From Bacillota bacterium (GTDB taxonomy: Bacteria > Bacillota > Clostridia > Acetivibrionales > DUMC01), in contig JABUEW010000015.1 in the NCBI GenBank assembly GCA_013314855.1, positions 1-48,179 on the forward strand: a stretch of 48,179 nucleotides of DNA, written 5' to 3'. Within the stretch, counting starts at the first letter, position 1. Each line of letters begins with the position of its first letter. Positions 8,765 to 48,112 of this stretch are shown in pieces. The position numbers were made by a program, and so were the translations under genes. Below the pieces are notes generated by a model that saw only the letters and a list, made by a program, of their open reading frames with translations, ran no database searches and was not told the origin of the DNA.

Positions 8765-8788
8765 GGGCTCTCTTAAAAGAGAGCCCTT
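8765..8788 (+). terminator. Terminator hairpin after the importer operon
   Basis: GGGCTCTCTT and AAGAGAGCCC are a perfect 10-bp inverted repeat (8765-8774 with 8777-8786). Only two T follow, so termination may rely on the strength of the stem. Confidence 0.65.
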
Positions 8789-8823: not shown

Positions 8824-9124
8824 CTATTAGTTCTTGATTTTAATATTGGAACTTAATGTTAGAATGATTAATTCAATAATCAGAATTATATGACAGCAAT
8901 ATTTATAAAAAGCATACTCATTTATTCAAATTCAATTGAGCCACTCATAAATAACCAGCTCCCTGAATAAATACATGTGGAATCAATCGCGAAATTTGTT
9001 AAAACAGAAAGCAGAGACAAAGTATGGCAGAAACAGAGGTGTTCATACCTGTCTATATAAATCTTTATTACATTTTCTGTTAACTTTAATATAAACTATA
9101 CATGCAAGAAAGGGGGTCAGTATT
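8824..9124 (+). promoter_or_regulatory. Leader and promoter region of the RiPP locus
   Basis: AT-rich and without a supported gene. A candidate promoter is -35 TTACAT (9068-9073), 16 bp, -10 TATAAA (9090-9095), about 30 nt before the precursor start codon. The ribosome site AGGGGG (9111-9116) is strong and sits 8 nt before the ATG. No obvious regulator operator was recognised. Confidence 0.4.
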
Positions 9125-9277
9125 ATGGAATGGATTATCGAGCCGAATGAAATTGTTGATGAAGCTGAGAATACTACTTGTTGGTGCATATCCGGGCACT
9201 GTCCCTCACATATGTGTTCGTGCCCAAGTAAAACGCCCTGTTATTGCAGCATGACGGCATATAGCAGTTGCTATTAA
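9125..9277 (+). CDS. Putative Cys-rich RiPP precursor peptide (50 aa)
   Basis: This small gene has a strong AGGGGG ribosome site 8 nt before its ATG and sits directly upstream of four radical SAM maturase genes. Residues 1-18 (MEWIIEPNEIVDEAENTT) are acidic, Cys-free and leader-like. Residues 19-50 hold eight Cys at 19, 21, 26, 31, 33, 39, 41 and 49, including three C-x-C units (CWC, CSC, CYC), plus many Ser/Thr/Tyr. This split into acidic leader and Cys-dense core is typical of ranthipeptide/sactipeptide-type precursors matured by SPASM enzymes, and Cys/Ser/Thr are also YcaO substrates. In layout it recalls short clostridial Cys-rich precursors such as the Clo7bot type; this is from memory, not a search. 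No transmembrane segment is visible. The mature product and activity are unknown. Confidence 0.78.
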   Translation: MEWIIEPNEIVDEAENTTCWCISGHCPSHMCSCPSKTPCYCSMTAYSSCY

Positions 9278-9376
9278 TGTAGCTTAATGACAGTTATGAA
9301 ACTTCTGTTTTCTGCTTTATAAAGACAAAGTGTAATTCAAAATATAATACTTATGTTAAAGGATGGTGTAGACTTG

Positions 9377-10720
9377 ATGAAAGCTTCCGTATTCAATATT
9401 TTTGTGGATACCGAAAATGGAGAAAAACTTCTGTACAACAGTTTTAGGAATTCCCTTGTCAAACTTGATAAAAGTACATATGAAACGTACAAAAAAATTA
9501 CATTACAGGGTGGAGAAGATGCAATTGATATGTTGGATCCTTTGGTATTGGCAACTATTGCGGATTTTAAAAGGGGAGGCTTTATAATAGACGATGATAT
9601 GAACGAAGTTGATTATATTAAGGTAGTTGATGTTCAAAGCAGATTCTCACACAGTAAAAATTTTGGATTAACCATAGCGCCCACCCTGGATTGCAATTTT
9701 GATTGCGTATACTGCTATGAGAATCACAAAGAACCCAAATATATGAGCAGGGAAACAGAGAATAAAGTAATTGATTATGTGAAGGAACATTTGGAGGATG
9801 ACGGGTATCTTTCCATTACATGGTATGGTGGAGAACCACTGCTGGCACTTGAGACAATCTACCGCCTTTCAGAAACGTTTATAAAAATTACTGGTGATAA
9901 AAATGCCGGGTATGACTCTATGGTTATCACTAACGGGTACTTATTAAGTCGGAAAGTTGCTGAAAATCTAAAAAAATACAAAGTTACAAGGGCACAAATA
10001 ACGGTTGATGGTGCACCGGAATACCATGATAGCGTAAGACGGCTCAAAAACGGCAAAGGAACGTTTGACAGAATATTAAGCAATATCAGGGAAGCAAAAG
10101 AAATATACGAAGAATTCATGATTTCAATAAGGATGAATGTAGGAAAAGAAAATGTGGATTCCTTTCCGGTATTTATAGACAAGCTGGAGGAGTACAAGAT
10201 TAAAAATAAAATATCGCTGGGTATTTCAGAAGTTGAACCTCATGAGTATTTATGCGGTCAAGTCAATGATGCTACATTTACTCCTGAAGAGTTTTCAAGG
10301 GTATATGTCAGGCTTGTGGATATGGCAGTGGAAAGAGGAGTACCACTGGCAGTAATATCAAATAATAATTTGGCACACTGTTCATCTACAAAAAAAGACG
10401 CATTTCTTATAGGTCCTGACGGAAAGCTGTACAAATGCTGGGATGTTATAGGAAATCATTTAGAAAGTGTAGGAGAAATCGGCGAGGATATAAAAATATT
10501 GAATGGATCTTTAAAGTGGCTGGCATGGGATATGTTTAAAAATAAGATGTGCCATGAATGCAATGTCCTGCCACTTTGTATGGGTGGCTGCCCGCGCAAA
10601 TCCCTTGTGAAGGATAAAATTGTTAATTCAATGGACCATTGTAATCATATAAGATACTGCATGCCGGAGTTGATAAAAATTATGTATAAGCAGCGGAGGC
10701 TTATGAAAAAGATAGGCTGA
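9377..10720 (+). CDS. Radical SAM/SPASM peptide maturase 1
   Basis: First of four paralogous maturases. An N-terminal ~90-residue module (MKASVFNIFVDT... to KRGGFIIDDD) is shared by all four and may bind the precursor leader. The radical SAM cluster motif CxxxCxxC is at Cys106/110/113 (DCNFDCVYCYE), followed by WYGGEPLL. The C-terminal SPASM region (GPDGKLYKCWD, CHECNVLPLCMGGCP and a later CNH) should bind two auxiliary [4Fe-4S] clusters. Known relatives form Cys thioether or other crosslinks in RiPPs. I chose the ATG at 9377 because the paralogues start with MKAS and AAAGGATGG lies ~10 nt upstream; an in-frame ATG exists at 9353. It is most similar to maturase 3. Confidence 0.88.
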   Translation: MKASVFNIFVDTENGEKLLYNSFRNSLVKLDKSTYETYKKITLQGGEDAIDMLDPLVLATIADFKRGGFIIDDDMNEVDYIKVVDVQSRFSHSKNFGLTIAPTLDCNFDCVYCYENHKEPKYMSRETENKVIDYVKEHLEDDGYLSITWYGGEPLLALETIYRLSETFIKITGDKNAGYDSMVITNGYLLSRKVAENLKKYKVTRAQITVDGAPEYHDSVRRLKNGKGTFDRILSNIREAKEIYEEFMISIRMNVGKENVDSFPVFIDKLEEYKIKNKISLGISEVEPHEYLCGQVNDATFTPEEFSRVYVRLVDMAVERGVPLAVISNNNLAHCSSTKKDAFLIGPDGKLYKCWDVIGNHLESVGEIGEDIKILNGSLKWLAWDMFKNKMCHECNVLPLCMGGCPRKSLVKDKIVNSMDHCNHIRYCMPELIKIMYKQRRLMKKIG

Positions 10721-10734
10721 AGGGAGGGAGTAGC

Positions 10735-12090
10735 TTGAAAGCATCAATGTTTAATATTCTGACAGAGCAGGATGACGGGTCAATCCTATTTTATAACAGT
10801 ATGTGGGGAACACTCGCCACTATGGATAAAAAAAGCTATGATATCTATAAAGCAATAATAGATACTGGATATAAAGAGGACGAAGCGGACCCTGAAATAC
10901 ATACCCTGGCTGTTCAGCTTAAGAAAGGCGGTTTTATTGTTGAAGACAGTATTGATGAACTTAAATGCCTGAAACAGCGGTATGAAAATAATAAATCATC
11001 CTTTTCGATATTTCGGTTATATATTGTTCCTACAAGTGCTTGTAATTTTGCCTGCAAATATTGCTACTATGAAGGTTGTGGAAATAATAAAATGCCGGAA
11101 GAGGTGCAGGACGCATTGCTGGAGTTTGTAAAAAAAAGAATCGGAAGCAGAAAAGTTCTGAACATTGTATGGACAGGAGGTGAGCCGACACTTGCGCCTG
11201 ATGTTATTATTCGCCTTTCAAAAGGATTAATGAAAATTACAAAAGAACTAGGCATAGCTTATGTTTCATCCATCTTTACAAACGGATATCTTTTTGACAG
11301 AGATATGGCGGAAGAACTGTATGAGTATGGTGTACGTATAGCTCAGATTGTAGTGGACGGTCCGCGCCAGGTGCATAATCAAAGAAGACCTTTGATTAAC
11401 GGTTCTGGAACTTTTGATGTTATTATGAAAAATCTCAAAGATATATCAGCAAAAATGGATGTAGCATTAAGGGTAAATCTTGATTCAACGAATGCGAACA
11501 GCCATAATATTACAAGCCTGCTTGATTCTCTCAGACAATGTAATTTGCCTGGAACTACTATTATTGAACTGGCGCATGTAATGCCGTTTACTTCACACTG
11601 CTTTGAGTTTATCAAGAAATACGGTCTAAGTAGTAAAGAATTTGGGGACAGGCTTTCCAAACTTTATCCACTGGTTTATGAGAGTGGTTTCAGGCCGAAG
11701 ATTGACATATCTCCTGAAATAAGTATTTCTCCCTGTATGACAGATAGTTGTTTTGGCATTTCGGAAGAAGGAGATCTCTACAGATGTTTTTTGCTTATAG
11801 GGGATAAAAATGAATGTGTGGGAAATCTTTTAAAAGATAACAGTTCTCTGGAAAACGACAAGAAATATATCATATGGAATACATGGAGTCCATTTTCACA
11901 GGAAGAATGTCGCAAGTGCAATATACTTCCCATATGTATGGGAGGAGGATGTCCTTTGTATGATGTTGTTCAGAATGATGATTTACATAAAGATGTCCGT
12001 TGTATACCGTTAAAATTTTATATAAATGAGGCCATAAAATTAAATTGCAGGATGCTGCAGAGATGGAGGAAAGATGAAAATGCAATATAG
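10735..12090 (+). CDS. Radical SAM/SPASM peptide maturase 2
   Basis: Second paralogue, 451 aa, starting with TTG just after a GGGAGGGAG ribosome site; its start MKASMFNI aligns with the siblings. The CxxxCxxC motif is at Cys103/107/110 (ACNFACKYCYYEG), followed by VWTGGEPTLA. The SPASM part has EEGDLYRC and CRKCNILPICMGGGCP. The last spacing carries an extra Gly (C-x4-C rather than C-x3-C in the other three), and this copy is the most divergent overall. It is translationally coupled to the following reductase. A distinct residue or bond specificity on the same peptide is likely but unproven. Confidence 0.87.
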   Translation: MKASMFNILTEQDDGSILFYNSMWGTLATMDKKSYDIYKAIIDTGYKEDEADPEIHTLAVQLKKGGFIVEDSIDELKCLKQRYENNKSSFSIFRLYIVPTSACNFACKYCYYEGCGNNKMPEEVQDALLEFVKKRIGSRKVLNIVWTGGEPTLAPDVIIRLSKGLMKITKELGIAYVSSIFTNGYLFDRDMAEELYEYGVRIAQIVVDGPRQVHNQRRPLINGSGTFDVIMKNLKDISAKMDVALRVNLDSTNANSHNITSLLDSLRQCNLPGTTIIELAHVMPFTSHCFEFIKKYGLSSKEFGDRLSKLYPLVYESGFRPKIDISPEISISPCMTDSCFGISEEGDLYRCFLLIGDKNECVGNLLKDNSSLENDKKYIIWNTWSPFSQEECRKCNILPICMGGGCPLYDVVQNDDLHKDVRCIPLKFYINEAIKLNCRMLQRWRKDENAI

Positions 12091-13171
12091 AAAGCTAGGT
12101 CGGACAAATCTGGATGTATCGTTTATAGGTCTCGGAGGGCTTTATTTCCCAGCTCTTTCTAATGTAGAGGCTGTAAAGATAATAATGAAAGCCAATGAAC
12201 TTGGAATAAACCTTATTGAACTGGGGAGAGCATATGTGAATAGTGAGGAAAAAGCTGGGTTTGTTATGCAGAAAAAGCGAAATGAATTTTGTATTGCTAC
12301 TAAGACACCTCAGAGAAAAAAAGAAGGTGCAATGAGAGATATAGATGCAAGTCTTACCAGCTTAAAAACGGATTATATAGATGTATATCAGTTGCATCAG
12401 ATCGATAGCCTGGAAATGCTTGACAGGGTATTGGAACCTGATGGCGCCTGTGAAGCATTGAAACGTGCTAAGGAACAGGGTAAAATCAGGTATACGGGTA
12501 TTACAGGCCACTCACCCACTGTTCTTACAAAAGCTATAAAGACAGGTGAATTCGATACTGTGCAGGTTTTGTTTAATATTGTAGAAAGGGAAGCCCTTTC
12601 TGAACTTATTCCGCTTGCTCAAGAAATGAATATAGGTATTCTTGGTATGAAACCTTTCGGGGGTGGGGCTTTCCTTGAAAAAGACAGTAGCATATTTGCA
12701 GTTTTGAATAAATATACCGGCACTGTTACCAGGACACTTTTGAGATTTGTACTATCCTTCAATATATCATCTATACTTGCGGGGGTAAAGACCATAGAGG
12801 AACTCGAAGCAAATATTACTTTCAAAGAAACGTTTAAACCTTTTTCAGACCAGGAGATTGTCAATATTATTAGTGAAATTGACAGTCTGGGTTTAGAAAG
12901 GGAAAAATTCTGCCACCGATGTGGTTATTGCTTATGCTGCCCGCAGCATATTGATATTCCTCTTATTTTAAGACTGGATGAGTATTTACATAAATATGGA
13001 AGTACAGGTTGGCCTGTCCAACAATACAGCCATATTAGACAAAACGCGTTAAAATGTGTACAGTGTGGTCATTGTGAAGAGAGATGCCCATTTAAACTTC
13101 CAATTAGGGAAATGCTAAAAGCTGCACATAAAAGGCTTTCCTCAATTTCTGCATACAATGGTTCTCAGTAA
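12080..13171 (+). CDS. Aldo/keto reductase with C-terminal ferredoxin-type domain
   Basis: The N-terminal ~270 residues form an aldo/keto reductase barrel, starting MQYRKLGRTNLDVSFIGLG. The catalytic Tyr (GRAYVNSEEK), Lys (IATKTPQ) and His (VYQLHQID) are present. The usual catalytic Asp of the DTA-Y motif appears as Glu (LIELGRAY). The C-terminus carries two Cys clusters (CHRCGYCLCCP and CVQCGHCEERCP), predicted to bind [4Fe-4S] centres, as in the ferredoxin-type COG1453 group. The ATG at 12080 lies 9 nt after GGAGGA; the ATG at 12074 would leave only 3 nt. The gene overlaps maturase 2 and sits between maturases. This suggests a tailoring reduction or electron supply for the radical SAM enzymes; both roles are inference. 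Confidence 0.85.
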   Translation: MQYRKLGRTNLDVSFIGLGGLYFPALSNVEAVKIIMKANELGINLIELGRAYVNSEEKAGFVMQKKRNEFCIATKTPQRKKEGAMRDIDASLTSLKTDYIDVYQLHQIDSLEMLDRVLEPDGACEALKRAKEQGKIRYTGITGHSPTVLTKAIKTGEFDTVQVLFNIVEREALSELIPLAQEMNIGILGMKPFGGGAFLEKDSSIFAVLNKYTGTVTRTLLRFVLSFNISSILAGVKTIEELEANITFKETFKPFSDQEIVNIISEIDSLGLEREKFCHRCGYCLCCPQHIDIPLILRLDEYLHKYGSTGWPVQQYSHIRQNALKCVQCGHCEERCPFKLPIREMLKAAHKRLSSISAYNGSQ

Positions 13172-13199
13172 AGCCATTAACTAAGGGGGTAAAAATAGA

Positions 13200-14537
13200 A
13201 TGAAAGCTTCTAGGTTTAATATCATAACCGATATAGGTAATGGGGATATTCTTTTATATAACACTTTAAAAAATACGTTTGTAAAAATTGATCAAGACTT
13301 GTACGATGTTTTTCAAAAAATAACAACCCAAGGTGAGAAAGAGAATATTGATGAATCAGACCCACATATAGCTGCAGCTATTATGGATTATAAAAAAGGA
13401 GGTTTCATAGTAGAGGATGATTTAAATGAAAATGATTATTTGAGATTAAATGATATAATAAGAAGATTTTCCGATTATAAACGTATCGGATTGACAATAG
13501 CACCAACTATGGACTGCAATTTTAGTTGTATATACTGTTATGAAAGCGACAAAAAAAAGTGTGAATATATGAGCAGAGAAGTTGAGGATAAAATAATAAA
13601 ATATGTGGATGAAAACCTGGAGCCATATGGTGCTCTTAAAGTTACTTGGTTCGGAGGCGAACCGTTGCTTGCTGTTGATACCATTTACCGTCTTTCTGAT
13701 GCTTTTATGGAAATAACTGAAAAGAAAAAATCAAGGTATTATGCTACAATTCTAACTAATGGATACCTACTTACTCCAGAGGTAGTAACCAATCTTAAGA
13801 AATATGGTGTCGACGGAGCACAAGTCACGCTGGACGGTCCGCCGGAGTATCATGACCGTGTGAGATGCCTTAAAAACGGAGAAGGAACATTTGATAGAAT
13901 AGTAGATAATATTAAAAAAATGGACTATAATTTCATGATATCGGTACTGACCAACATCGGAAAGGATAATGTAGAGATGTTTCCTACTTTCCTGGATATA
14001 TTGGAGGAAAGAGGAATTAGAAACAGAATAGTACTAAGCATTGCTCCACTTCAGCCGCGTGAATACCTGTGCCGGCAGGTCAATAACGCTGTATTCGACC
14101 CGGAAGAGTTTTCAAAGGTTTATGTAAGGCTTGTAGAAATGCTGGTTGACAGAAGAGTGGGTACGGATGTAGTACCTAAAAGCTATGAGTCACAATGCGC
14201 ATCCATTTCACAGATGGGGATGCTGATTGGACCTGACGGATGCCTGTACAAATGCTGGGATGTCATTGGTAACTATTCCGAATGCGTAGGGCGGATTGGT
14301 CAAAAAGTTAAGCTTCTGGACGGATCTTACAGGTGGTTGGCTTGGGATGTATTCAAGAATGAAGAATGCCGTAACTGCAGTGTTCTTCCACTTTGTATGG
14401 GAGGGTGTCCCCGCAAGATACTTGTAAAGGACAATATTCTCAATCGGCAAAATCACTGTTCGCATTTAAAATACAATATGCCTGAATTATTAAAGATACT
14501 ATACAAACAGTATAAGGATGTTAAAAAGACTGGATAG
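13200..14537 (+). CDS. Radical SAM/SPASM peptide maturase 3
   Basis: Third paralogue, 445 aa, with AAGGGGGT 9 nt before the ATG. The N-terminal module (MKASRFNI to KKGGFIVEDD) is followed by the radical SAM motif at Cys106/110/113 (DCNFSCIYCYE), WFGGEPLLA, and a SPASM domain with GPDGCLYKCWD and CRNCSVLPLCMGGCP. It aligns almost end to end with maturase 1, including the C-terminal MPELLKILYKQ, so the two look like a local duplication that later diverged. The retained motifs suggest both remain active. Confidence 0.88.
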   Translation: MKASRFNIITDIGNGDILLYNTLKNTFVKIDQDLYDVFQKITTQGEKENIDESDPHIAAAIMDYKKGGFIVEDDLNENDYLRLNDIIRRFSDYKRIGLTIAPTMDCNFSCIYCYESDKKKCEYMSREVEDKIIKYVDENLEPYGALKVTWFGGEPLLAVDTIYRLSDAFMEITEKKKSRYYATILTNGYLLTPEVVTNLKKYGVDGAQVTLDGPPEYHDRVRCLKNGEGTFDRIVDNIKKMDYNFMISVLTNIGKDNVEMFPTFLDILEERGIRNRIVLSIAPLQPREYLCRQVNNAVFDPEEFSKVYVRLVEMLVDRRVGTDVVPKSYESQCASISQMGMLIGPDGCLYKCWDVIGNYSECVGRIGQKVKLLDGSYRWLAWDVFKNEECRNCSVLPLCMGGCPRKILVKDNILNRQNHCSHLKYNMPELLKILYKQYKDVKKTG

Positions 14538-14591
14538 CCAATTAGTTTAAATTGCATAATCACATATATTTATAGAAAAAGGAGGGAGAAT

Positions 14592-16442
14592 GTGAAAGAA
14601 TATGGTTATGCAACACGATATAAAGAATGTAGTCCGTTAGAGACAATCCATAATGTAAGGAATATTCTGTACCATCTCGGTATTTTGACTAAGGAAGAAT
14701 GGAAACAAGACGTGAAAGGGTATTATTCCCTTAACCTGTCCATCGTGGGGACCAGCTTGTTTTCCAACGGCAAGGGAACTTCCTGTGAATATGCTCTTGC
14801 CAGTGCATATGGCGAGCTTATTGAAAGACTGCAGAATTTTGTTGTATTCAAGTACACTAAGGCAATGAGGAAGGAGGCACTGGAATATAGAGACTTTTAT
14901 CTTGCTCCGGACGAGAAGTATGTAAGTATTGATGAAATATTGCATAACAGTGAGAAATGGCTTGAGGTGTTTACTTTTGAAGCTGAAGATATAAATGAGA
15001 AAAAATCTCTTCTGGAGAGATGGAAAATGGCAGATTATTTAAGCAGTGATAGGCCGGATTTTGTTGCTTTGCCTTACCTAAATATTACTGAAAACAGCAT
15101 AAATTACATTCCTGCAATTATGCTTATTAGCAGGTACGGCTCAAATGGTATGTGTGCTGGAAATACGGTTGAAGAAGCTCTTGTCCAGGGCATTTCCGAA
15201 ACAATAGAGAGATATGTAAATTTTAAAATTATTAGTGATGGAATCGTACCTCCAACCATCCCTGAATCTTATATTATGGAACACTGTACCCACCTTTACA
15301 AAATGATAAAAGAACTGGAGAGCAGAGGGCCATTTAAGCTTGTTATCAAGGATTGTTCACTAGGACAGGGATTTCCGTGTATAGGAATAATCTTTTTAGA
15401 TAAAAAGCGTGGAACATATTTTGTAAAATTTGGTGCCCATCCTATATTTGAAATCGCACTTGAGCGGGGTATGACAGAATTGATGCAGGGAAGAAGAATG
15501 GATGATTTGGATTGGATGGTAAAATTTTCATACCTTGAAAATACCGAAATTAGTAAATTCAAGAATAAAGATAATATATTTTGCTTTGGTTGTGGCTATT
15601 ATCCTGCCAGATTTTTCGGTGAAGACTGTAATTATGGATTTTCTGAATTCGAATACTGCGGAAATGGCAGCAACGGGGAAATGCTGTCATATCTTATCAA
15701 TATTATACAGGGTAAAGGGTACGATATACTTATAAGGGATGTATCTTTTCTTGAGTTTCCCAGCTTTCATGTGGTTGTTCCATTTTTCAGTGAGGTAAAT
15801 GATTCGAACCTTCATTCAATCAATATTATAACAGGAAGAAAGAGCGCATCTTCTGTATTAATGCATCTTGAGAAGGCATGCAACGAGGAGTTGCAGCAAG
15901 TAATTGATTATATGAATCTTGCCGAGTACAGTCCTTATGATTCAATAACAAAACCTCTGCATAGGTCGTTCAGTATGAATTTCCCCTGGAATAAAATAAA
16001 GAGGGATTTGTTCATATGCTCTGCTTATTACAAGATGAGACAGTTTAGAAAAGCCTATGATGCAATGGACCGTTTTTTAAAATCATCTATTGTGGATTTG
16101 GGAGAAAGAAGCCTTGCATATTACAGTTGTATCAGGGACTATATTGGTGCACGTGTGGAAGGAATTGATCAAGAAGACAGGATTTATGGCATCTTGAATA
16201 AAATGTATCCGGAAGATATTGTAAAAATGGTTTTTTCCGGTATGAGAAATCCTAATGACGTTTTTAAAAACTGTGGGAGGTTGGATTGCTTTGAGTGTAA
16301 CAAGTGTCCCTATACTGAATACTGTACATATCCTGAGATGGAAAAATTGTATAAGAAGTTGAAAGACAGGTATGCAGAAAATGTAATTGACCAGAGAAGG
16401 ATTATGAATTTCTGCACTTGTAAAAAGGAGGTCCAGGTATGA
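14592..16442 (+). CDS. YcaO-domain protein with C-terminal repeat/Cys-rich tail
   Basis: The N-terminal ~430 residues are a YcaO fold. ATP/Mg-binding motifs appear as SCEYALASAYGELIERLQNF (~57-76) and CAGNTVEEALVQGISETIER. YcaO enzymes use ATP to activate peptide amides, giving azolines, amidines or thioamides. The next ~100 residues resemble a TPR-like helical repeat (YYKMRQFRKAYDAMDRFL). The tail has CGRLDCFECNKCPYTEYC (C-x4-C-x2-C-x2-C-x5-C) plus CTC, a possible metal or Fe-S site. No E1-like cyclodehydratase partner, flavin dehydrogenase or TfuA gene is nearby, so the reaction is open. The GTG start follows GGAGGG by 5 nt. The stop codon overlaps maturase 4 (ATGA), showing operon coupling. 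Confidence 0.85.
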   Translation: MKEYGYATRYKECSPLETIHNVRNILYHLGILTKEEWKQDVKGYYSLNLSIVGTSLFSNGKGTSCEYALASAYGELIERLQNFVVFKYTKAMRKEALEYRDFYLAPDEKYVSIDEILHNSEKWLEVFTFEAEDINEKKSLLERWKMADYLSSDRPDFVALPYLNITENSINYIPAIMLISRYGSNGMCAGNTVEEALVQGISETIERYVNFKIISDGIVPPTIPESYIMEHCTHLYKMIKELESRGPFKLVIKDCSLGQGFPCIGIIFLDKKRGTYFVKFGAHPIFEIALERGMTELMQGRRMDDLDWMVKFSYLENTEISKFKNKDNIFCFGCGYYPARFFGEDCNYGFSEFEYCGNGSNGEMLSYLINIIQGKGYDILIRDVSFLEFPSFHVVVPFFSEVNDSNLHSINIITGRKSASSVLMHLEKACNEELQQVIDYMNLAEYSPYDSITKPLHRSFSMNFPWNKIKRDLFICSAYYKMRQFRKAYDAMDRFLKSSIVDLGERSLAYYSCIRDYIGARVEGIDQEDRIYGILNKMYPEDIVKMVFSGMRNPNDVFKNCGRLDCFECNKCPYTEYCTYPEMEKLYKKLKDRYAENVIDQRRIMNFCTCKKEVQV

Positions 16443-17791
16443 AAATGTCTCGTTATAACTTTTTCGTTGAGGACGACCATGGAGTGATACTTGCATATAA
16501 CGCTCTTAGTGGGGCTTTTGCATGTATTGACAGGGAACTCTACCGGCAGTTTCTCAAGGTATGCTCGAATCCGCATTTGATGGATGAGTATAATGGTACC
16601 GATGAAGATGACAAAAAGCTGTCTTATGCCATTAACCAATTTAAAAAAGGTGGATTCCTTATTGAGGATAGTATAGATGAAATTGATATACTCAAAAAAA
16701 AACAGTACCATATGAGATTTCAACAAAGTAACATGCTGAGCATGACCATAGTGCCGACACTTGACTGCAACTTCAAATGCGTTTATTGCTATGAAGGCAT
16801 TTGCAAGGATAGATATCGTATGACCAGAGATACTGCAGATCACATAATAAAGTATATAAATGACTTTTCTCCTAATAAAGGTATCCTAAGAATAACATGG
16901 TTTGGCGGCGAACCTACGCTTGCACTAAATATAATATATTATATTTCTAATGCGGTTAAGGATATTCTATCCAAAAAGCAGGCTGGCTATTTTTCAATTA
17001 TTTTTACGAACGGGTATCTTTTAGATAAAAAAGTGGCTTCAGAACTGCGAAGATGTGGCGTGGAAGAGGCATGCATAACAATTGACGGTTACGCGGAAGG
17101 CCATAACGCCAGGAGACCTTTGAGAAACGGGGGAAATACATTCCAGACCATTATGAGTAATATAATTGATATATCGGATATTATGAATGTATGTGTCAGG
17201 TATTCAGTTGACAGGGACAATATAAAGGAGTTTTCCGGGTTTTTGGATATATTAGAAGAATCAAATGTCGCGGAGAAAATCAGAATGGAGATAGTTAGGA
17301 TTGAAGCGTACCCTTATTCAATCGATGCTGTTAAAAGCAGGGCATTGTCCACCTTTGAATTTTCCGCGATTTTTTATGAGCTTGCTGAACAGGCTGTTAA
17401 AAGAAAAATAAAAATAGACTTTCTGCCAGCTAAAGACAGAGGGGCATGTTCCGCCTTGTTGGCAAACCATGTTGTTGTAGCACCGAGAGGAGAACTTCAT
17501 AAATGTACATATACCATCTGGAACCCTGATGAATCTTTCGGCAAAATAGACAGACCCTTTGAATGGAATGAAAATCTGGAAAAATGGATGGATACCTCCC
17601 CAATAGATAATGAAAACTGTAAAAATTGCAGGATATTGCCTATATGTATGGGTGGATGTTTGCGCAACATGATTATAAAGGATACTGCACCGACTAATAC
17701 AGAAGGCTGCTGTATGCAATATAAGTACAATATCGAGAAGTTCCTAAAACTGAAGTACAGACAAAGCAGAATTAAAAGTGAGAGTCTATAG
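16439..17791 (+). CDS. Radical SAM/SPASM peptide maturase 4
   Basis: Fourth paralogue, 450 aa, overlapping the YcaO gene by 4 nt. The N-terminal module (MKMSRYNFFVED to KKGGFLIEDS) precedes the radical SAM motif at Cys110/114/117 (DCNFKCVYCYEG) and WFGGEPTLA. The SPASM part includes APRGELHKC and CKNCRILPICMGGCL with a final CC pair. It is more divergent from copies 1 and 3. Coupling to YcaO implies matched expression of the two modifying activities. A second in-frame ATG at 16445 is possible. Confidence 0.87.
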   Translation: MKMSRYNFFVEDDHGVILAYNALSGAFACIDRELYRQFLKVCSNPHLMDEYNGTDEDDKKLSYAINQFKKGGFLIEDSIDEIDILKKKQYHMRFQQSNMLSMTIVPTLDCNFKCVYCYEGICKDRYRMTRDTADHIIKYINDFSPNKGILRITWFGGEPTLALNIIYYISNAVKDILSKKQAGYFSIIFTNGYLLDKKVASELRRCGVEEACITIDGYAEGHNARRPLRNGGNTFQTIMSNIIDISDIMNVCVRYSVDRDNIKEFSGFLDILEESNVAEKIRMEIVRIEAYPYSIDAVKSRALSTFEFSAIFYELAEQAVKRKIKIDFLPAKDRGACSALLANHVVVAPRGELHKCTYTIWNPDESFGKIDRPFEWNENLEKWMDTSPIDNENCKNCRILPICMGGCLRNMIIKDTAPTNTEGCCMQYKYNIEKFLKLKYRQSRIKSESL

Positions 17792-17804
17792 AATGGGTGG
17801 TTGT

Positions 17805-18503
17805 ATGGGAAAAACCGATTTACTGGAATCCAGAAAAGAAACAGAGCACTTTAAATTCTTTTGTATGGAGAAGGATGTGATATGTCTAGAAAACTTATCC
17901 GGCATACTTGAATATAATTGTAAAAAAATTCTGCATGATTTAAACTTAACACTGGAAGAAAAAGTTGAGGTAAAAATATATCCCGATATAAAAACATTTC
18001 ATGAAGAAGTTATGGAGGACGCCGATTCGCCCGAATGGCTGGTAGGGACGGCACAGTCTGGGTTAATCTGTATTGTATCGCCGCTAAACCCGGGTCCGGT
18101 ACACAACTATGCCAGCATACTAAAGACTGCGGTCCATGAATTTACCCATACCCTTGTAAAAAAGGTCAATTGCAAGGGTGTGTGGAGATTTCTGGATGAA
18201 GGCTTAGCACTATTTGAAGCAGAACAAATGGATAATAAACATAAAGTAATATTGGCAAATATGATTTCAAGAAAGAAAATACCGACTATTAATGAACTTG
18301 AATCGGATTTTATTGGACAAAGCGGGTTTATTTTTGCATACACAATTGTTGAATATATAATAAAACGATATGGTTTTGATAAACTAAACGAACTGATTAG
18401 AAATCCTTCTGATTTTAGAAAAATCTTCAACACTACAGAAGATGAATTTGAGAAGGAATGGGTTGAATTTCTAAATGAATATTATAGAGCTTGTATGGAG
18501 TAG
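17805..18503 (+). CDS. Gluzincin-type (peptidase MA-like) metallopeptidase
   Basis: A Zn-peptidase signature HEFTH is followed ~25 residues later by FLDEGLALFEAE, which supplies the third Glu ligand. This is the arrangement of the gluzincin/peptidase-MA family. The protein is ~232 aa, lacks a signal peptide and is therefore likely cytoplasmic. I prefer the ATG at 17805, preceded by GGGTGG; in-frame starts at 17778 (GTG) and 17793 (ATG) would overlap or abut maturase 4 and have no clear ribosome site. Its place in the operon makes it a candidate leader peptidase for the modified precursor. This is inference from context. Confidence 0.75.
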   Translation: MGKTDLLESRKETEHFKFFCMEKDVICLENLSGILEYNCKKILHDLNLTLEEKVEVKIYPDIKTFHEEVMEDADSPEWLVGTAQSGLICIVSPLNPGPVHNYASILKTAVHEFTHTLVKKVNCKGVWRFLDEGLALFEAEQMDNKHKVILANMISRKKIPTINELESDFIGQSGFIFAYTIVEYIIKRYGFDKLNELIRNPSDFRKIFNTTEDEFEKEWVEFLNEYYRACME

Positions 18504-18544
18504 TAAATCTGTTATATTTGCTGATTGGAGGTGCTGTGTGTTAT

Positions 18545-19024
18545 ATGGAGTTAAATGTAAGAAAAGCAAGCTTAAGTGATGCTGAGAGTTTGAAACATCT
18601 CTGGAGAAAGCTTGCGGACGACCAATTGGATAAAGACCCTTATTATAAGGGAGATTTTATTGTTGAAAGAGACTATATGATTGAAAAATATATGCAAATG
18701 CAGGAATGCATAATATATGTAGCAACGGCAGATGAAAAAGTTGTCGGTTTTATTGAAGCATGGATGCGAAAGAAGGATTTTGAGTTTTTTGTAGACGACT
18801 ACCTTTACATAACACATTACTATATTGAACCCGGCTATAGAGGCTATGCAAAATTATTCCAACAATTAATTAAAAAAGTTGAAATATGGGCTGCTGAGCA
18901 TAATATTAAGTTTATTGTGGCAGATATGTTGCGAAATAACAGCAGAGCTGTTGATTTGGCTAAATTATTAAAATACAACGAATATAAGGTTAAGTTGGTT
19001 AAGCCTTTAATAAAAAGCGAATAA
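18545..19024 (+). CDS. GNAT-family N-acetyltransferase
   Basis: The ~159-aa protein has a GNAT fold. VRKASLSDAESLKHLWRKL begins the first strand and helix; EKVVGFIEAW and YLYITHYYIEPGYRGYAKLFQQLI form the acetyl-CoA pyrophosphate-binding loop region (variant of the R/Q-x-x-G-x-G/A motif). The ATG at 18545 lies 11 nt after GGAGGTG. It overlaps the next gene by a few bases and follows the peptidase closely. It could acetylate the processed peptide N-terminus or confer self-protection; no substrate can be read from sequence. Confidence 0.78.
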   Translation: MELNVRKASLSDAESLKHLWRKLADDQLDKDPYYKGDFIVERDYMIEKYMQMQECIIYVATADEKVVGFIEAWMRKKDFEFFVDDYLYITHYYIEPGYRGYAKLFQQLIKKVEIWAAEHNIKFIVADMLRNNSRAVDLAKLLKYNEYKVKLVKPLIKSE

Positions 19025-19074
19025 TGCTTGGAAAGAACATGAAAACGAGGTTAAACGAAGTGGGGGGATTGAAA

Positions 19075-19883
19075 GTGGAACAGGTAGCTTTGTTGCAAAT
19101 GCCGTGGGGAGTAATTGACAGGGGATCGTTATGCCTTGGGTTGTTAAAAAGAGTTTTGGAAGATGAAGGTATTTCAGCTAGGGTATATTACCTGAACCTG
19201 CGTTTTGTAAAATATTTAAAACAAGACACATATGAAATCATATCATCCAAAATGTTTTATATTGGCGAATGGCTTTTTTCACAATTTCTTTTCAGGGACC
19301 TTTTGCCCAAACAGAGAAATACAAATTTTACCGGACTTATAGAGGGCCTTTCTTCTAAAGGCAAGCACTATTTGAACCTGGTAAACAAATTAATTCATAT
19401 GAAAGAAGAGTTGGAGAATATTATTAATATCTCTATTCCAAGGTATATTAATGACTGTTTGGATAGCATACCATGGAAAGATATTGCCATAGCGGGTTTT
19501 TCTTGTAAAGTCGGAGCACAGGTTTCCTCCCTTGTTTTTGCCCGGGAACTCAAAGAACGGTTTCCACACATAAAGATTATATTTGGCGGTTAAAAAAAGA
19601 CATTTATGTCTATTGCAGTGAAATACGGTCATTCCTTGAAATCCAGGAATATTTGAATAAAAAGACAAGTTTAATATATAGCAAAGATAACTTAAGAGAA
19701 TTGTTGAAGGAATTTATAGATAAGAAACTGATGATTCTAAAAATGCTTAATGACGGAGAGAGGCCTACTTCTTGTCAAGGCCAAGCTTTGCTTATTCATT
19801 TTAGCCTTGACAAAATAGCTTATGGTACAATCAATTCTGCATATAATTTTATTCCAAGACTTTTTTCAAGCCAGTTTTTATAG
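19075..19883 (+). pseudogene. Internally deleted B12-type radical SAM RiPP maturase
   Basis: The intact N-terminal piece (19075 to the stop at 19593; in-frame ATG at 19024) has LLQMPWGVIDRGSLCLGLLK and IAIAGFSCKVGAQVSSL...IKIIFGG, the start of cobalamin-binding radical SAM proteins of the RiPP maturation protein 1 type, which are normally ~600 aa. It stops exactly where the family continues from FGG. Downstream, in another frame (about 19593-19883), DIYVYCSEIRSFLEIQEYLN and NLRELLKEFIDKKLM look like that family's C-terminal helical tail. The radical SAM core with its CxxxCxxC motif is missing. An internal deletion plus frameshift is the simplest explanation. A GTG at 19075 has GGGGGGA 6 nt upstream. 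Confidence 0.7.
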
Positions 19884-20119: not shown

Positions 20120-22153
20120 ATGCGGGAATTTAAAATTGTGTCGGATTTTAAACTGCAGGGCGACCAGCCCGAGGCTGTGGAAAAGCTGGTAGAGGGTATA
20201 AATAAAGGATACAGGAAGCAGACATTGCTGGGTGTTACCGGTTCAGGCAAGACTTTTACCATGGCTAATGTCATTGAGAGGGTCCAGAAGCCTACCCTGG
20301 TAATTGCCCACAACAAGACTCTAGCAGCCCAACTTTGCAGTGAGTTTAAAGAGTTTTTCCCAAATAATGCCGTTGAATACTTTGTAAGTTACTACGACTA
20401 TTACCAGCCTGAAGCATATATACCTTCCACAGACACTTATATTGAGAAGGATTCATCCATAAACGATGAGATTGACAAACTGAGACACTCTGCTACTGCT
20501 GCTCTGCTTGAAAGAAGGGATGTAATTATTGTAGCCAGTGTTTCATGCATATACGGCCTTGGAGACCCGGAGGACTATACTGAGCTTATGCTTTCTTTGC
20601 GACCGGGAATGCGTAAAGACAGGGATGAGATAATAAAAAAACTGGTGGAAATACAATATACAAGAAATGAAATTGACTTCAAACGCAGTACCTTTCGTGC
20701 CAGGGGAGATGTGTTGGAAATATTCCCGGCATCTTCATCCGAGCGCGTTATCCGTGTAGAGTTTTTTGGTGATGAGATTGAAAGGATAACTGAAATTGAG
20801 CCACTTACAGGTGAAATAATAGGTATAAGGTCTCATGTTGCAATTTTCCCTGCATCCCATTACACTACCACACGGGCAAAAATGGAAAGGGCTCTCGTTT
20901 CCATACAAGAAGAATTGGAAGAACGTCTGAAAGAGCTTCGAGGACAGGGAAAACTGCTGGAGGCCCAACGCCTTGAACAGAGAACAAGGTACGATATTGA
21001 AATGATGAGGGAAATAGGGTTTTGCCAGGGGATTGAGAACTACTCAAGGCATTTGAGCGGCAGGGCGCCCGGAAGTCCTCCTTATACATTAATTGACTAT
21101 TTCCCCGATGATTTCCTGTTGATTATTGATGAATCCCACGTGACAGTACCACAGATAGCGGGCATGTATAATGGGGACAAATCAAGGAAAGAAGCCCTGG
21201 TTGAGTATGGCTTCAGGCTTCCTTCAGCTTTTGATAACAGACCTCTTAAATTTGAGGAGTTTGAGGAAAAAATCAACCAAGTGATATATGTAAGTGCAAC
21301 ACCTGCACAGTATGAAAGAGAATGTTCAGCACAAATAGTTGAGCAGATAATAAGGCCTACGGGGTTAATGGATCCGGAAGTTGTTGTAAAGCCTGTCGAG
21401 GGGCAAATAGATGACCTTATGGACGAAATCAGCAAAAGGACTGCAAAGAATCAGCGTGTGCTGGTAACTACCCTTACAAAAAGAATGGCGGAGGATTTAA
21501 CTGGTTATCTTACAGAAATGGGTTTTAAAGTAAAGTATCTTCACTCTGATATTGATACTATTGAACGTATGGAAATTATAAGAGATCTCAGGCTGGGTGT
21601 TTTTGATGTACTTGTTGGGATAAACTTACTAAGAGAGGGCCTTGACTTGCCTGAAGTGTCTCTTGTTGCTATACTGGATGCTGATAAGGAGGGTTTCCTG
21701 AGGTCTGAAACTTCTCTTATACAGACTATAGGAAGAGTTGCAAGGAATGTGGAAGGTAAAGTAATAATGTATGCCGATATTGTTACTGAATCCATGAGAA
21801 GAGCAATTAATGAGACCAACAGGAGAAGAAGGATCCAGATGGAGTATAACCGTAAACACGGTATTACTCCTAAAAGCATCCAAAAAGGGATAAGAGATAT
21901 TATAGAAGCTACCAGGGTTGCAGAAGATAAGGGAAAGTACGGGATTGAAGAAGAGGTAGGAGTTAAAAGGACTAAAGGAATTGAAGAGAACAGAAAAGAC
22001 GGTGCTTTAAGTAAGGAAGATTTGGAGAGGATTATTGAAAGGCTGACAAAAGAAATGAAGGCTGCGGCAAAAAATTTGGAGTTTGAAAGGGCAGCGCAAC
22101 TGAGAGATAGAATTACTCAGCTAAAAGAAGAGTTCAAAAGTAAGAGTTTATAA
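20120..22153 (+). CDS. uvrB: Excinuclease ABC subunit UvrB
   Basis: Central helicase-like damage-verification subunit of nucleotide excision repair; it receives damaged DNA from UvrA and recruits UvrC. The Walker A motif GVTGSGKT is at 38-45. The damage-probing beta-hairpin [20 protein letters not shown], the helicase motif DESHVT, and the C-terminal UVR motif ([18 protein letters not shown]-type) are all present. At 677 aa it is full length. The start follows CGGAGGTAG. uvrA follows ~110 nt downstream on the same strand, the usual clostridial pairing. Confidence 0.98.
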
Positions 22154-47869: not shown

Positions 47870-47909
47870 TTAATATCAATTATAGTGTAATAAAATATTA
47901 TTACAAGAT

Positions 47910-47938
47910 AATTTAACACAGGCTATGAAATATGTCAA
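47910..47938 (-). promoter_or_regulatory. asnA promoter
   Basis: -35 TTGACA (47933-47938), 17-bp spacer, -10 TAAATT (47910-47915). The spacer begins TATTTCATA and ends TGTGT, nearly the same as in the glnK promoter. Confidence 0.7.
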
Positions 47939-48112
47939 TACAAAAATCTTCAAAAAATCTTCAATTTTTTCATCAGAGATGAAGCACGAATTTAAAAGAA
48001 AGAGAAAACAAGAGTTATAGAGAGTAGCAAAAAAATATTTTCGCAAAACCGGGTTGGACACGTACAAGATTAGTATTGTATAGTAGACTTGGGGGAGGTA
48101 GGTAATCAAGTC

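Follow-up and report, generated by a model that had tools for sequence, protein, structure and literature searches.

A putative Clo7bot-like peptide operon with one Cys-rich precursor and four paralogous SPASM radical SAM maturases in a Bacillota genome

Introduction

Why would a bacterium keep four sister radical enzymes next to the gene of a single small peptide? The question is raised by a 48,179-nucleotide stretch of DNA from a Bacillota bacterium (contig JABUEW010000015.1 of assembly GCA_013314855.1; hereafter the window), which is the complete contig C15 of a 4.43-Mb genome in 252 contigs. According to the list of open reading frames (ORFs), positions 9125–19883 hold the gene of a 50-aa peptide with eight Cys residues and nine downstream genes, all co-oriented. 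A sequence-only reading had proposed that this is a locus for a ribosomally synthesized and post-translationally modified peptide (RiPP), with one Cys-rich precursor, four paralogous SPASM radical S-adenosylmethionine (SAM) maturases, a YcaO, an aldo/keto reductase, a peptidase and a GNAT acetyltransferase. We compared the locus proteins with Pfam and NCBIfam profiles and searched for related loci. The proposed gene content was borne out by profile scores, sequence identities and an enrichment of the leader motif near maturases. In addition, we found what that reading had missed, a kinship with Clo7bot/TIGR04463 systems, and a name for the ninth gene after the peptide, which it had left unnamed: a broken B12-dependent methyltransferase. 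Here we argue that the locus is probably a Clo7bot/TIGR04463-like RiPP operon that was enlarged by duplication.

Results

The peptide has a leader found beside related maturases

The 50-aa peptide matched no NCBIfam model at an E value of 10 and no Pfam model at 0.01. Its start, MEWIIEP, resembles the leaders of peptides whose genes neighbour those of related maturases, among them peptides (MKYIVKP) that score above the Clo7bot cut-off; the closest leader is MEWIVEP, in the locus L043 described below. We counted frames of 30–90 aa with at least four Cys residues that start with M, followed by 0–2 residues, W/Y/F, I/L/V, two residues and P, in 35 loci with a maturase relative (the window and 34 fetched loci, designated by L numbers); this motif was defined after several of the peptides had already been seen. 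It was present in 27 of 1969 small frames lying at most 3 kb from a maturase and on the maturase strand (nested starts included; 24 distinct stop codons), versus 2 of 8480 elsewhere, which is more than chance would give. One of the two frames elsewhere (L089) itself resembles such a peptide, and the other is found in the window at positions 47876–48067 on the minus strand. Motif frames occur in 12 of the loci, among them the window, and are missing from the other 23, some of which (L090, L093) hold Cys-rich peptides with other leaders. Because its MEWIIEP start matches the leaders beside related maturases, the peptide is, judging from its sequence, very probably a RiPP precursor.

This is the single frame near the window maturases that combines the leader motif with at least four Cys residues, which speaks against a multi-precursor locus. 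An alternative frame at 9102–9254 was also rejected, having no NCBIfam match at an E value of 10 and a start that does not fit the motif. When a degenerate leader pattern was searched in 398 genomes of the phylum, it was detected in the window and at one site in genome G1070, with no maturase near the latter; in the order, one of 58 genomes had it, the window's own. The pattern was strict, as it missed a peptide with the leader MEWIVKP (L086) whose genome is among the 398.

Further peptides adjoin maturases elsewhere. L087 (8220–9112) encodes four tandem peptides with MxWVV/LVxP-type leaders, whose cores all begin with DAGCPWLC; one maturase and a B12 radical SAM gene, truncated by the contig end, adjoin them. 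The 373-aa, 23-Cys protein encoded directly before a related maturase in L068 (7648–8769) is possibly a large precursor. In the window's own genome, a 46-aa six-Cys peptide adjoins a SPASM enzyme, in what by eye resembles a SCIFF locus (L042, 4642–6235).

The four maturases are paralogues with intact Cys motifs

The maturases, named rS1 to rS4 in gene order, are related to each other, with rS1, rS4 and rS2 being 57%, 36% and 34% identical to rS3. The CX3CX2C motif is present in all of them, as is the C..C.....C...C SPASM run, which in rS2 contains one additional residue; across 33 aligned relatives, six Cys residues of the SPASM region do not vary and a seventh is conserved in 90% or more. The best NCBIfam model for all four was TIGR04463 (274–314 bits, cut-off 525), and they scored 255–297 bits with the Clo7bot model TIGR04334 (cut-off 600) and at most 102 bits with TIGR03974 (cut-off 425). 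Since the scores are below the cut-offs of TIGR04463 and TIGR04334, the enzymes are relatives of both families and, by the curated rule, members of neither.

An AlphaFold model was made for rS3 from a 33-row alignment (mean predicted local distance difference test score, pLDDT, 89.1). The model matched the structures of CteB, a thioether-forming enzyme (5wgg and 5why), from residue 4 to residues 436–438, so that almost the whole model, N-terminal domain included, is covered (for 5wgg: Z 27.4, root-mean-square deviation (rmsd) 5.3, 411 aligned, model residues 4–438), and that of TigE (8vpo) over residues 1–439 (Z 24.9, rmsd 3.6, 395 aligned). Sulfatase-maturating enzymes scored equally high (4k38, Z 28.1), but only over residues 94–441. 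The N-terminal 90 residues of the rS3 model, consisting of three strands and three helices, are read as a predicted peptide recognition domain, and rS1, rS2 and rS4 presumably have the same domain.

In one genome of the window's phylum, the locus L083 (7536–15108) packs three related maturases into 8 kb. The first two are separated by an ABC transporter, and no YcaO lies nearby.

A second cassette with four maturases lies on a contig assigned to a Desulfobacterales genome

The genome collection of the Genome Taxonomy Database (GTDB) was scanned with two degenerate peptide patterns drawn from the four maturases, which more divergent relatives would escape. Of the 73 stretches matched, 8 encode relatives. 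The best match, L043, is located on a contig of a Desulfobacterales metagenome-assembled genome (MAG) and has four tandem maturases, directly preceded by the gene of a 45-aa peptide with the MEWIVEP leader and seven Cys residues. TIGR04463 was the best NCBIfam match for three of these four maturases, and all scored below 525 bits. A B12 radical SAM gene of L043 reaches the TIGR03975 cut-off (281.85) with 283.6 bits though cut by the contig end, and an ABC-2 transporter pair and a transglutaminase-like protein are encoded upstream of the peptide gene. In a tree of 42 maturases, which omits L070, L071, L072 and L098, the eight maturases of the window and L043 form one clade (support 98/97), supporting their common descent, with rS2 grouping with the L043 maturases at 82/91. 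With a matching peptide and four sister maturases in so distant a locus, the core of the gene set looks real.

With rS3 as query at 1e-45, 8 of 391 genomes of the class matched, and only the window's genome did so more than once. An eight-row maturase profile matched 15 of the 398 phylum genomes (1e-75) and 18 of 297 genomes of the phylum of L043 (1e-60). More than one match was obtained for the window's genome (at least four), the L043 genome (at least five, four of them the cassette), G1028 (at least three) and G562 (at least two), and for no other genome; as 4 or 5 candidates were scored per genome, larger sets may be missed. Remote maturase relatives were present in 10 loci on viral contigs, and 222 plasmid records matched, all with less than 60% identity. 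The 34 comparison loci leave aside these viral loci (L073–L082) and plasmid hits, as well as L049, whose maturase is cut off, and the remote relatives in the window's own genome (L038–L042, L101). Contig ends truncate several of these 34 loci, so that gene counts involving them are lower bounds.

A YcaO contig from the L043 genome was considered as a continuation of the cassette and rejected, as its YcaO (C193 of G430) is only 25% identical and the contig could not be placed beside that of L043 (C194).

Organization of the locus

The gaps between the ten genes are, in order, 75, 14, −17, 28, 54, −4, −14, −13 and −1 nt; thus, at six of the nine junctions the genes overlap or stand 14 nt apart, and the largest gap is 75 nt, in agreement with the compact arrangement noticed before. 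The radical SAM, YcaO, aldo/keto reductase, Peptidase_MA_2 and GNAT assignments all exceed the Pfam gathering scores. From the position of ribosome-binding sites, the starts were refined to 9377 for rS1, about 18545 for the GNAT gene and, less clearly, about 17805 for the peptidase gene.

Table 1 Features of the peptide locus and the frame that follows it
Feature	Position	Strand	Basis
Precursor peptide gene (very probable), 50 aa, leader MEWIIEP, core with 8 Cys	9125..9277	+	ORF, ribosome-binding site, leader motif
rS1, SPASM radical SAM maturase	9353..10720, likely start 9377	+	Pfam/NCBIfam, Cys motifs, ribosome-binding-site position
rS2, SPASM radical SAM maturase, TTG start	10735..12090	+	Pfam/NCBIfam, Cys motifs
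Aldo/keto reductase with C-terminal 4Fe-4S ferredoxin-like domain	12074..13171	+	PF00248 8.9e-35, PF13534 3.9e-6
rS3, SPASM radical SAM maturase	13200..14537	+	Pfam/NCBIfam; AlphaFold pLDDT 89.1; CteB 5wgg/5why structural match
Stand-alone YcaO, 616 aa, E. coli YcaO type nearest	14592..16442	+	PF02624 1.1e-47; NF040716 279.1 bits; 4q84 6.9e-44
rS4, SPASM radical SAM maturase	16439..17791	+	Pfam/NCBIfam, Cys motifs
Peptidase_MA_2 metalloprotease-like protein, HEFTH ... EGLAL motif	17778..18503, start possibly 17805	+	PF13485 2.3e-10
GNAT acetyltransferase	18491..19024, likely start 18545	+	PF00583 2.8e-9; kin to L032 GNAT
N-terminal remnant of B12-binding RiPP radical SAM C-methyltransferase, radical SAM domain missing	19024..19593	+	TIGR03975 1.5e-36
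Possible C-terminal methyltransferase remnant, other frame	19593..19883	+	L095 resemblance, weak

Upstream of the cluster, a hairpin on the minus strand (8765–8786) was scored as a terminator; downstream, the gene starting at 20120 is presumably uvrB, as read by eye. Promoter matches were at chance level (49 versus 45.0 expected, standard deviation 6.2), and base composition did not point to recent transfer (G+C 0.369 for the cluster versus 0.372 outside).

YcaO, reductase, peptidase and acetyltransferase

The YcaO aligned with E. coli YcaO over residues 21–415 (4q84; 395 residues, 6.9e-44), and we take the blocks common to the two proteins to hold the ATP and magnesium ligands. Its domain reached 163.4 bits with PF02624 (gathering score 25.7). 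The score was 279.1 bits with NF040716, the S12 methylthiolation accessory model (cut-off 700), and 42.3 bits with the SagD-type model TIGR03604 (cut-off 219.25). No ThiF-like partner, TfuA or dehydrogenase was matched among the ten locus genes by Pfam and NCBIfam at an E value of 0.01.

An initial scan of genome contigs with the YcaO gave no match. Of 58 genomes from the order, 4 had a relative at 1e-20, as did 7 of 391 from the class at 1e-40; the window's genome is in both counts. Nine other relatives were fetched: those in L016 and L019 belong to radical SAM peptide loci, that in L012 shares its contig with a related maturase, which lies about 14 kb away on the opposite strand, and for seven of the nine BLAST with the window proteins revealed no maturase relative within the examined stretch.

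The 34 other maturase loci were searched by phmmer with the window and locus proteins. A GNAT and a peptidase were found together beside one of them, L032: the GNAT is 37.5% identical to that of the window (8e-31), and the peptidase 27% identical (1e-6) with HEFTH and EGLAL in common. A structure model of the window peptidase was poor (pLDDT 44.5) and was not used. The aldo/keto reductase had a relative in one locus, L045, on the other strand and about 6 kb off.

Two of the loci with a YcaO deserve mention in their own right. L016 (4103–17848) combines YcaO and SPASM genes: it encodes a peptide, Nif11-like by eye, ending ACCGNACAQC, three radical SAM enzymes, a Dph6-like protein and an E. coli-type YcaO, as well as a B12 radical SAM enzyme, for which ApyD is the nearest match (320 of 750 bits), and an exporter resembling the NHLP type (775 of 853 bits). 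In L019 (7677–11223), a peptide ending CSKDGCWCPDPPGGCRC is followed by a YcaO of the E. coli type and by a radical SAM enzyme; this small locus is suited to probing this YcaO. Furthermore, in two genomes the 3′ end of a stand-alone YcaO gene is immediately adjoined by short-period DNA repeats (L011, 9079–9420; L017, 8810–9151). We make no claim for the Cys-rich frames of these repeats as YcaO substrates, since the repeats are open in several frames on both strands.

The locus ends with a broken methyltransferase gene

The 189-aa gene at the end of the locus, the broken METHYLTRANSFERASE, matched positions 1–164 of the 606-position TIGR03975 profile (E 1.5e-36, 126.1 bits, cut-off 281.85). A comparison of six sequences showed that it is homologous to the N-termini of longer enzymes in L035 (3e-21), L095 (7e-20) and L043 (1e-8), and it stops before the radical SAM domain. 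The frame starting at 19593, which the 19883 boundary of the sequence-only reading takes in, weakly resembles residues 609–656 of the 697-residue L095 enzyme, with 17 of 500 shuffles being as good for the whole protein and 4 of 2000 for the last 150 residues; no signal was obtained against the L035 enzyme (275 of 500 and 495 of 2000 shuffles as good). An internal deletion is likely to have broken the gene, although a misassembly is a conceivable cause. B12 radical SAM genes were detected in four of the 34 other maturase loci (L035, L043, L087 and L095), which are also the loci that supplied the queries; the gene in L087, cut by the contig end, was recognised by its similarity to that of L043 (7e-11). 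The ABC-2 permease of L043, which presumably exports the peptide, has relatives in six further loci, making 7 of 34.

An unusually large candidate RiPP precursor was noted in L035 (7635–9182), a locus from the same taxonomic order, where the gene of a 515-aa protein neighbours those of a related maturase and a B12 radical SAM enzyme. Its N-terminal repeats appear beta/gamma-crystallin-like by eye and are followed by a long CefA-like repeat with a Cys at every fifth position (NF038108, 2.4e-14).

Discussion

A proposed pathway

In the pathway that we infer, the 50-aa peptide would be the substrate of every enzyme, and the steps might follow each other in the order given here. The maturases would bind the MEWIIEP leader through their N-terminal recognition domain. 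The four paralogues may act on different positions of the one eight-Cys core, or as complexes, and would install radical crosslinks, most likely Cys thioethers. The YcaO would use ATP to activate a backbone amide, with azoline(s) or an amidine as the most likely product, and the ferredoxin-tailed reductase could pass electrons to the clusters of the maturases or into the peptide. The metallopeptidase would then cleave off the leader, and the GNAT may acetylate the new N-terminus or the core lysine. The pathway probably once included a C-methylation step, carried out by a B12 radical SAM enzyme, that has been lost here.

We put the probability that the locus is a Clo7bot/TIGR04463-like RiPP operon, enlarged by duplication, and acts as a whole by this pathway at about 0.6. 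A more far-reaching proposal appears rather doubtful to us: that in two distant lineages four dedicated SPASM maturases, arisen by duplication, each install a crosslink of their own in a single Cys-rich peptide of 45–50 aa, to which the window branch adds a backbone modification by a stand-alone YcaO and a ferredoxin-tailed reductase that powers the radical enzymes from a nicotinamide cofactor.

Several results weigh against the preferred pathway. The sequence-only reading had named genome neighbourhoods as a check on conservation of the set. Precursor and four maturases do recur in L043, but the ten genes are not a fixed set: the YcaO stands beside none of the 34 other maturase loci, and peptidase and GNAT beside the one mentioned above. 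In the L043 cassette, none of YcaO, reductase, peptidase and GNAT was seen up to the contig end, so that a role of these proteins in the pathway rests on their position in the operon. In the two genomes nearest to that of the window among those searched (one of the same genus, 89% complete, and one of the same family), neither a YcaO relative at 1e-20 nor the leader pattern was found. Within the clade of eight maturases, rS1 with rS3 and three of the L043 enzymes are later duplicates; thus, a one-to-one correspondence between the cassettes is not supported, and the four maturases of each cassette form one group in 26% of bootstrap trees. The L043 cassette is one contig of one MAG, where a binning error is possible, which makes its occurrence in two phyla uncertain. 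Finally, a relative of the ABC-2 permease was not detected in the window genome at an E value of 1e-3, a weak negative from a search without a positive control. Because of this and the broken methyltransferase, the locus may be decaying, and the decay could extend to its function.

It is therefore conceivable, though in our view unlikely, that the maturases look intact while the pathway has become unproductive, the methyltransferase core and perhaps the exporter having been lost. The methyltransferase is indeed reduced to its N-terminal quarter and a possible out-of-frame C-terminal remnant, and the permease of the sister loci was not detected. However, the other nine frames are open, the motifs are intact in the proteins that were checked (the four maturases and the peptidase), 30 of the 34 sister loci likewise show no methyltransferase of this kind, and the peptide could remain intracellular or use another transporter.

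Alternatively, the operon may serve two functions, with maturases, peptidase and GNAT modifying the peptide, and YcaO and reductase acting on another substrate, comparable to E. coli YcaO in S12 methylthiolation. That the YcaO is nearest to the S12 accessory type, and that the combination was seen neither for most of its fetched relatives nor at any of the other maturase loci, is consistent with this possibility. Yet its gene sits between maturase genes and overlaps that of rS4 by 4 nt, its score is far under the S12 cut-off, and the relatives in L016, L019 and, at some distance, L012 keep company with radical SAM enzymes; we regard a division into two functions as rather improbable. A thioamidated or azole ranthipeptide hybrid resembling the actinobacterial SPASM and YcaO-TfuA clusters has precedent, such clusters being on record in the part of PMC8120280 available to us, but the lack of a TfuA, ThiF-like or dehydrogenase match among the ten genes at an E value of 0.01 and a YcaO nearest to another subtype make it unlikely. 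These readings overlap with each other and with the Clo7bot/TIGR04463-like pathway that we prefer, and their odds do not sum to one.

If the preferred pathway is right, one small peptide and four sister radical enzymes would provide a natural test of how SPASM enzymes divide their labour, whether site by site, one after the other or in complexes. Through its stand-alone YcaO of the E. coli type, the operon may also offer a route to the action of this subtype on a peptide, and the ferredoxin-tailed reductase suggests a candidate physiological electron donor for radical SAM enzymes.

Comparison with known systems

Among the closest known systems are those of the Clo7bot kind (TIGR04333/TIGR04334), which likewise have a short Cys-rich peptide with an M-K/E-Y/W-I-V/I-K/E-P leader and an adjoining SPASM maturase. 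L032 passes the Clo7bot models (maturase 775 bits, cut-off 600; five scanned peptides 39–52 bits, cut-off 31) and has the homologues of the window peptidase and GNAT near its maturase. The kinship of leader, peptidase and GNAT therefore ties the window to Clo7bot-like systems. In contrast, the window peptide had no TIGR04333 match at an E value of 10 (cut-off 31 bits) and its maturases are below 600 bits; L032 has many peptides and one maturase, whereas the window has one peptide and four maturases, with YcaO and reductase added. TIGR04463, comprising maturases of Cys-rich RiPPs, is the best family for the window enzymes, yet they remain below its equivalog cut-off of 525.

With CteB, the maturase of SCIFF/thermocellin, and with ranthipeptide maturases, the rS3 model shares the fold including the N-terminal domain, and the SPASM Cys pattern is in common; the TIGR03974 scores of the window maturases, below the cut-off, set them apart. 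Ranthipeptides are marked by a thioether between a Cys sulphur and a carbon other than the alpha carbon. TigE acts together with a B12 partner to form cyclopropyl residues. It is a SPASM enzyme of the same fold as the rS3 model, and the window differs by its four maturases and its broken B12 partner. TIGR03975-type C-methyltransferase genes adjoin the maturases in L043, L035, L087 and L095, and the window's copy is broken. E. coli YcaO shares the YcaO domain, while the operon context of the window protein is that of peptide maturation.

To our knowledge, YcaO is not part of thuricin CD. That system also uses more than one SPASM enzyme in a pathway, and the part of PMC12093266 available to us describes the two as acting as one complex; it differs in having two enzymes and two peptides and in being a sactipeptide. 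Actinobacterial clusters with SPASM and YcaO-TfuA genes are annotated as ranthipeptides in the accessible part of PMC8120280, so that the pairing of SPASM and YcaO as such is not unprecedented. Among the ten genes, the profiles recognised neither the SagD-type YcaO with a ThiF-like partner that marks azole/azoline peptides (thiazole/oxazole-modified microcins, TOMM; linear azol(in)e-containing peptides, LAP), nor the TfuA beside YcaO that marks thioamidated RiPPs. Neither this gene set nor four paralogous SPASM maturases with one Cys-rich precursor is described in the accessible parts of the literature covered, which includes PMC8120280, PMC10352776 and PMC12093266 and has subscription papers mostly outside it. 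We therefore rate the locus as a variant of Clo7bot/TIGR04463-like Cys-rich RiPP systems, whose parts and general scheme are already known; new, as far as we know, are the pairing of one precursor with a fourfold set of maturases, seen in two lineages, and the addition of a stand-alone YcaO and a reductase.

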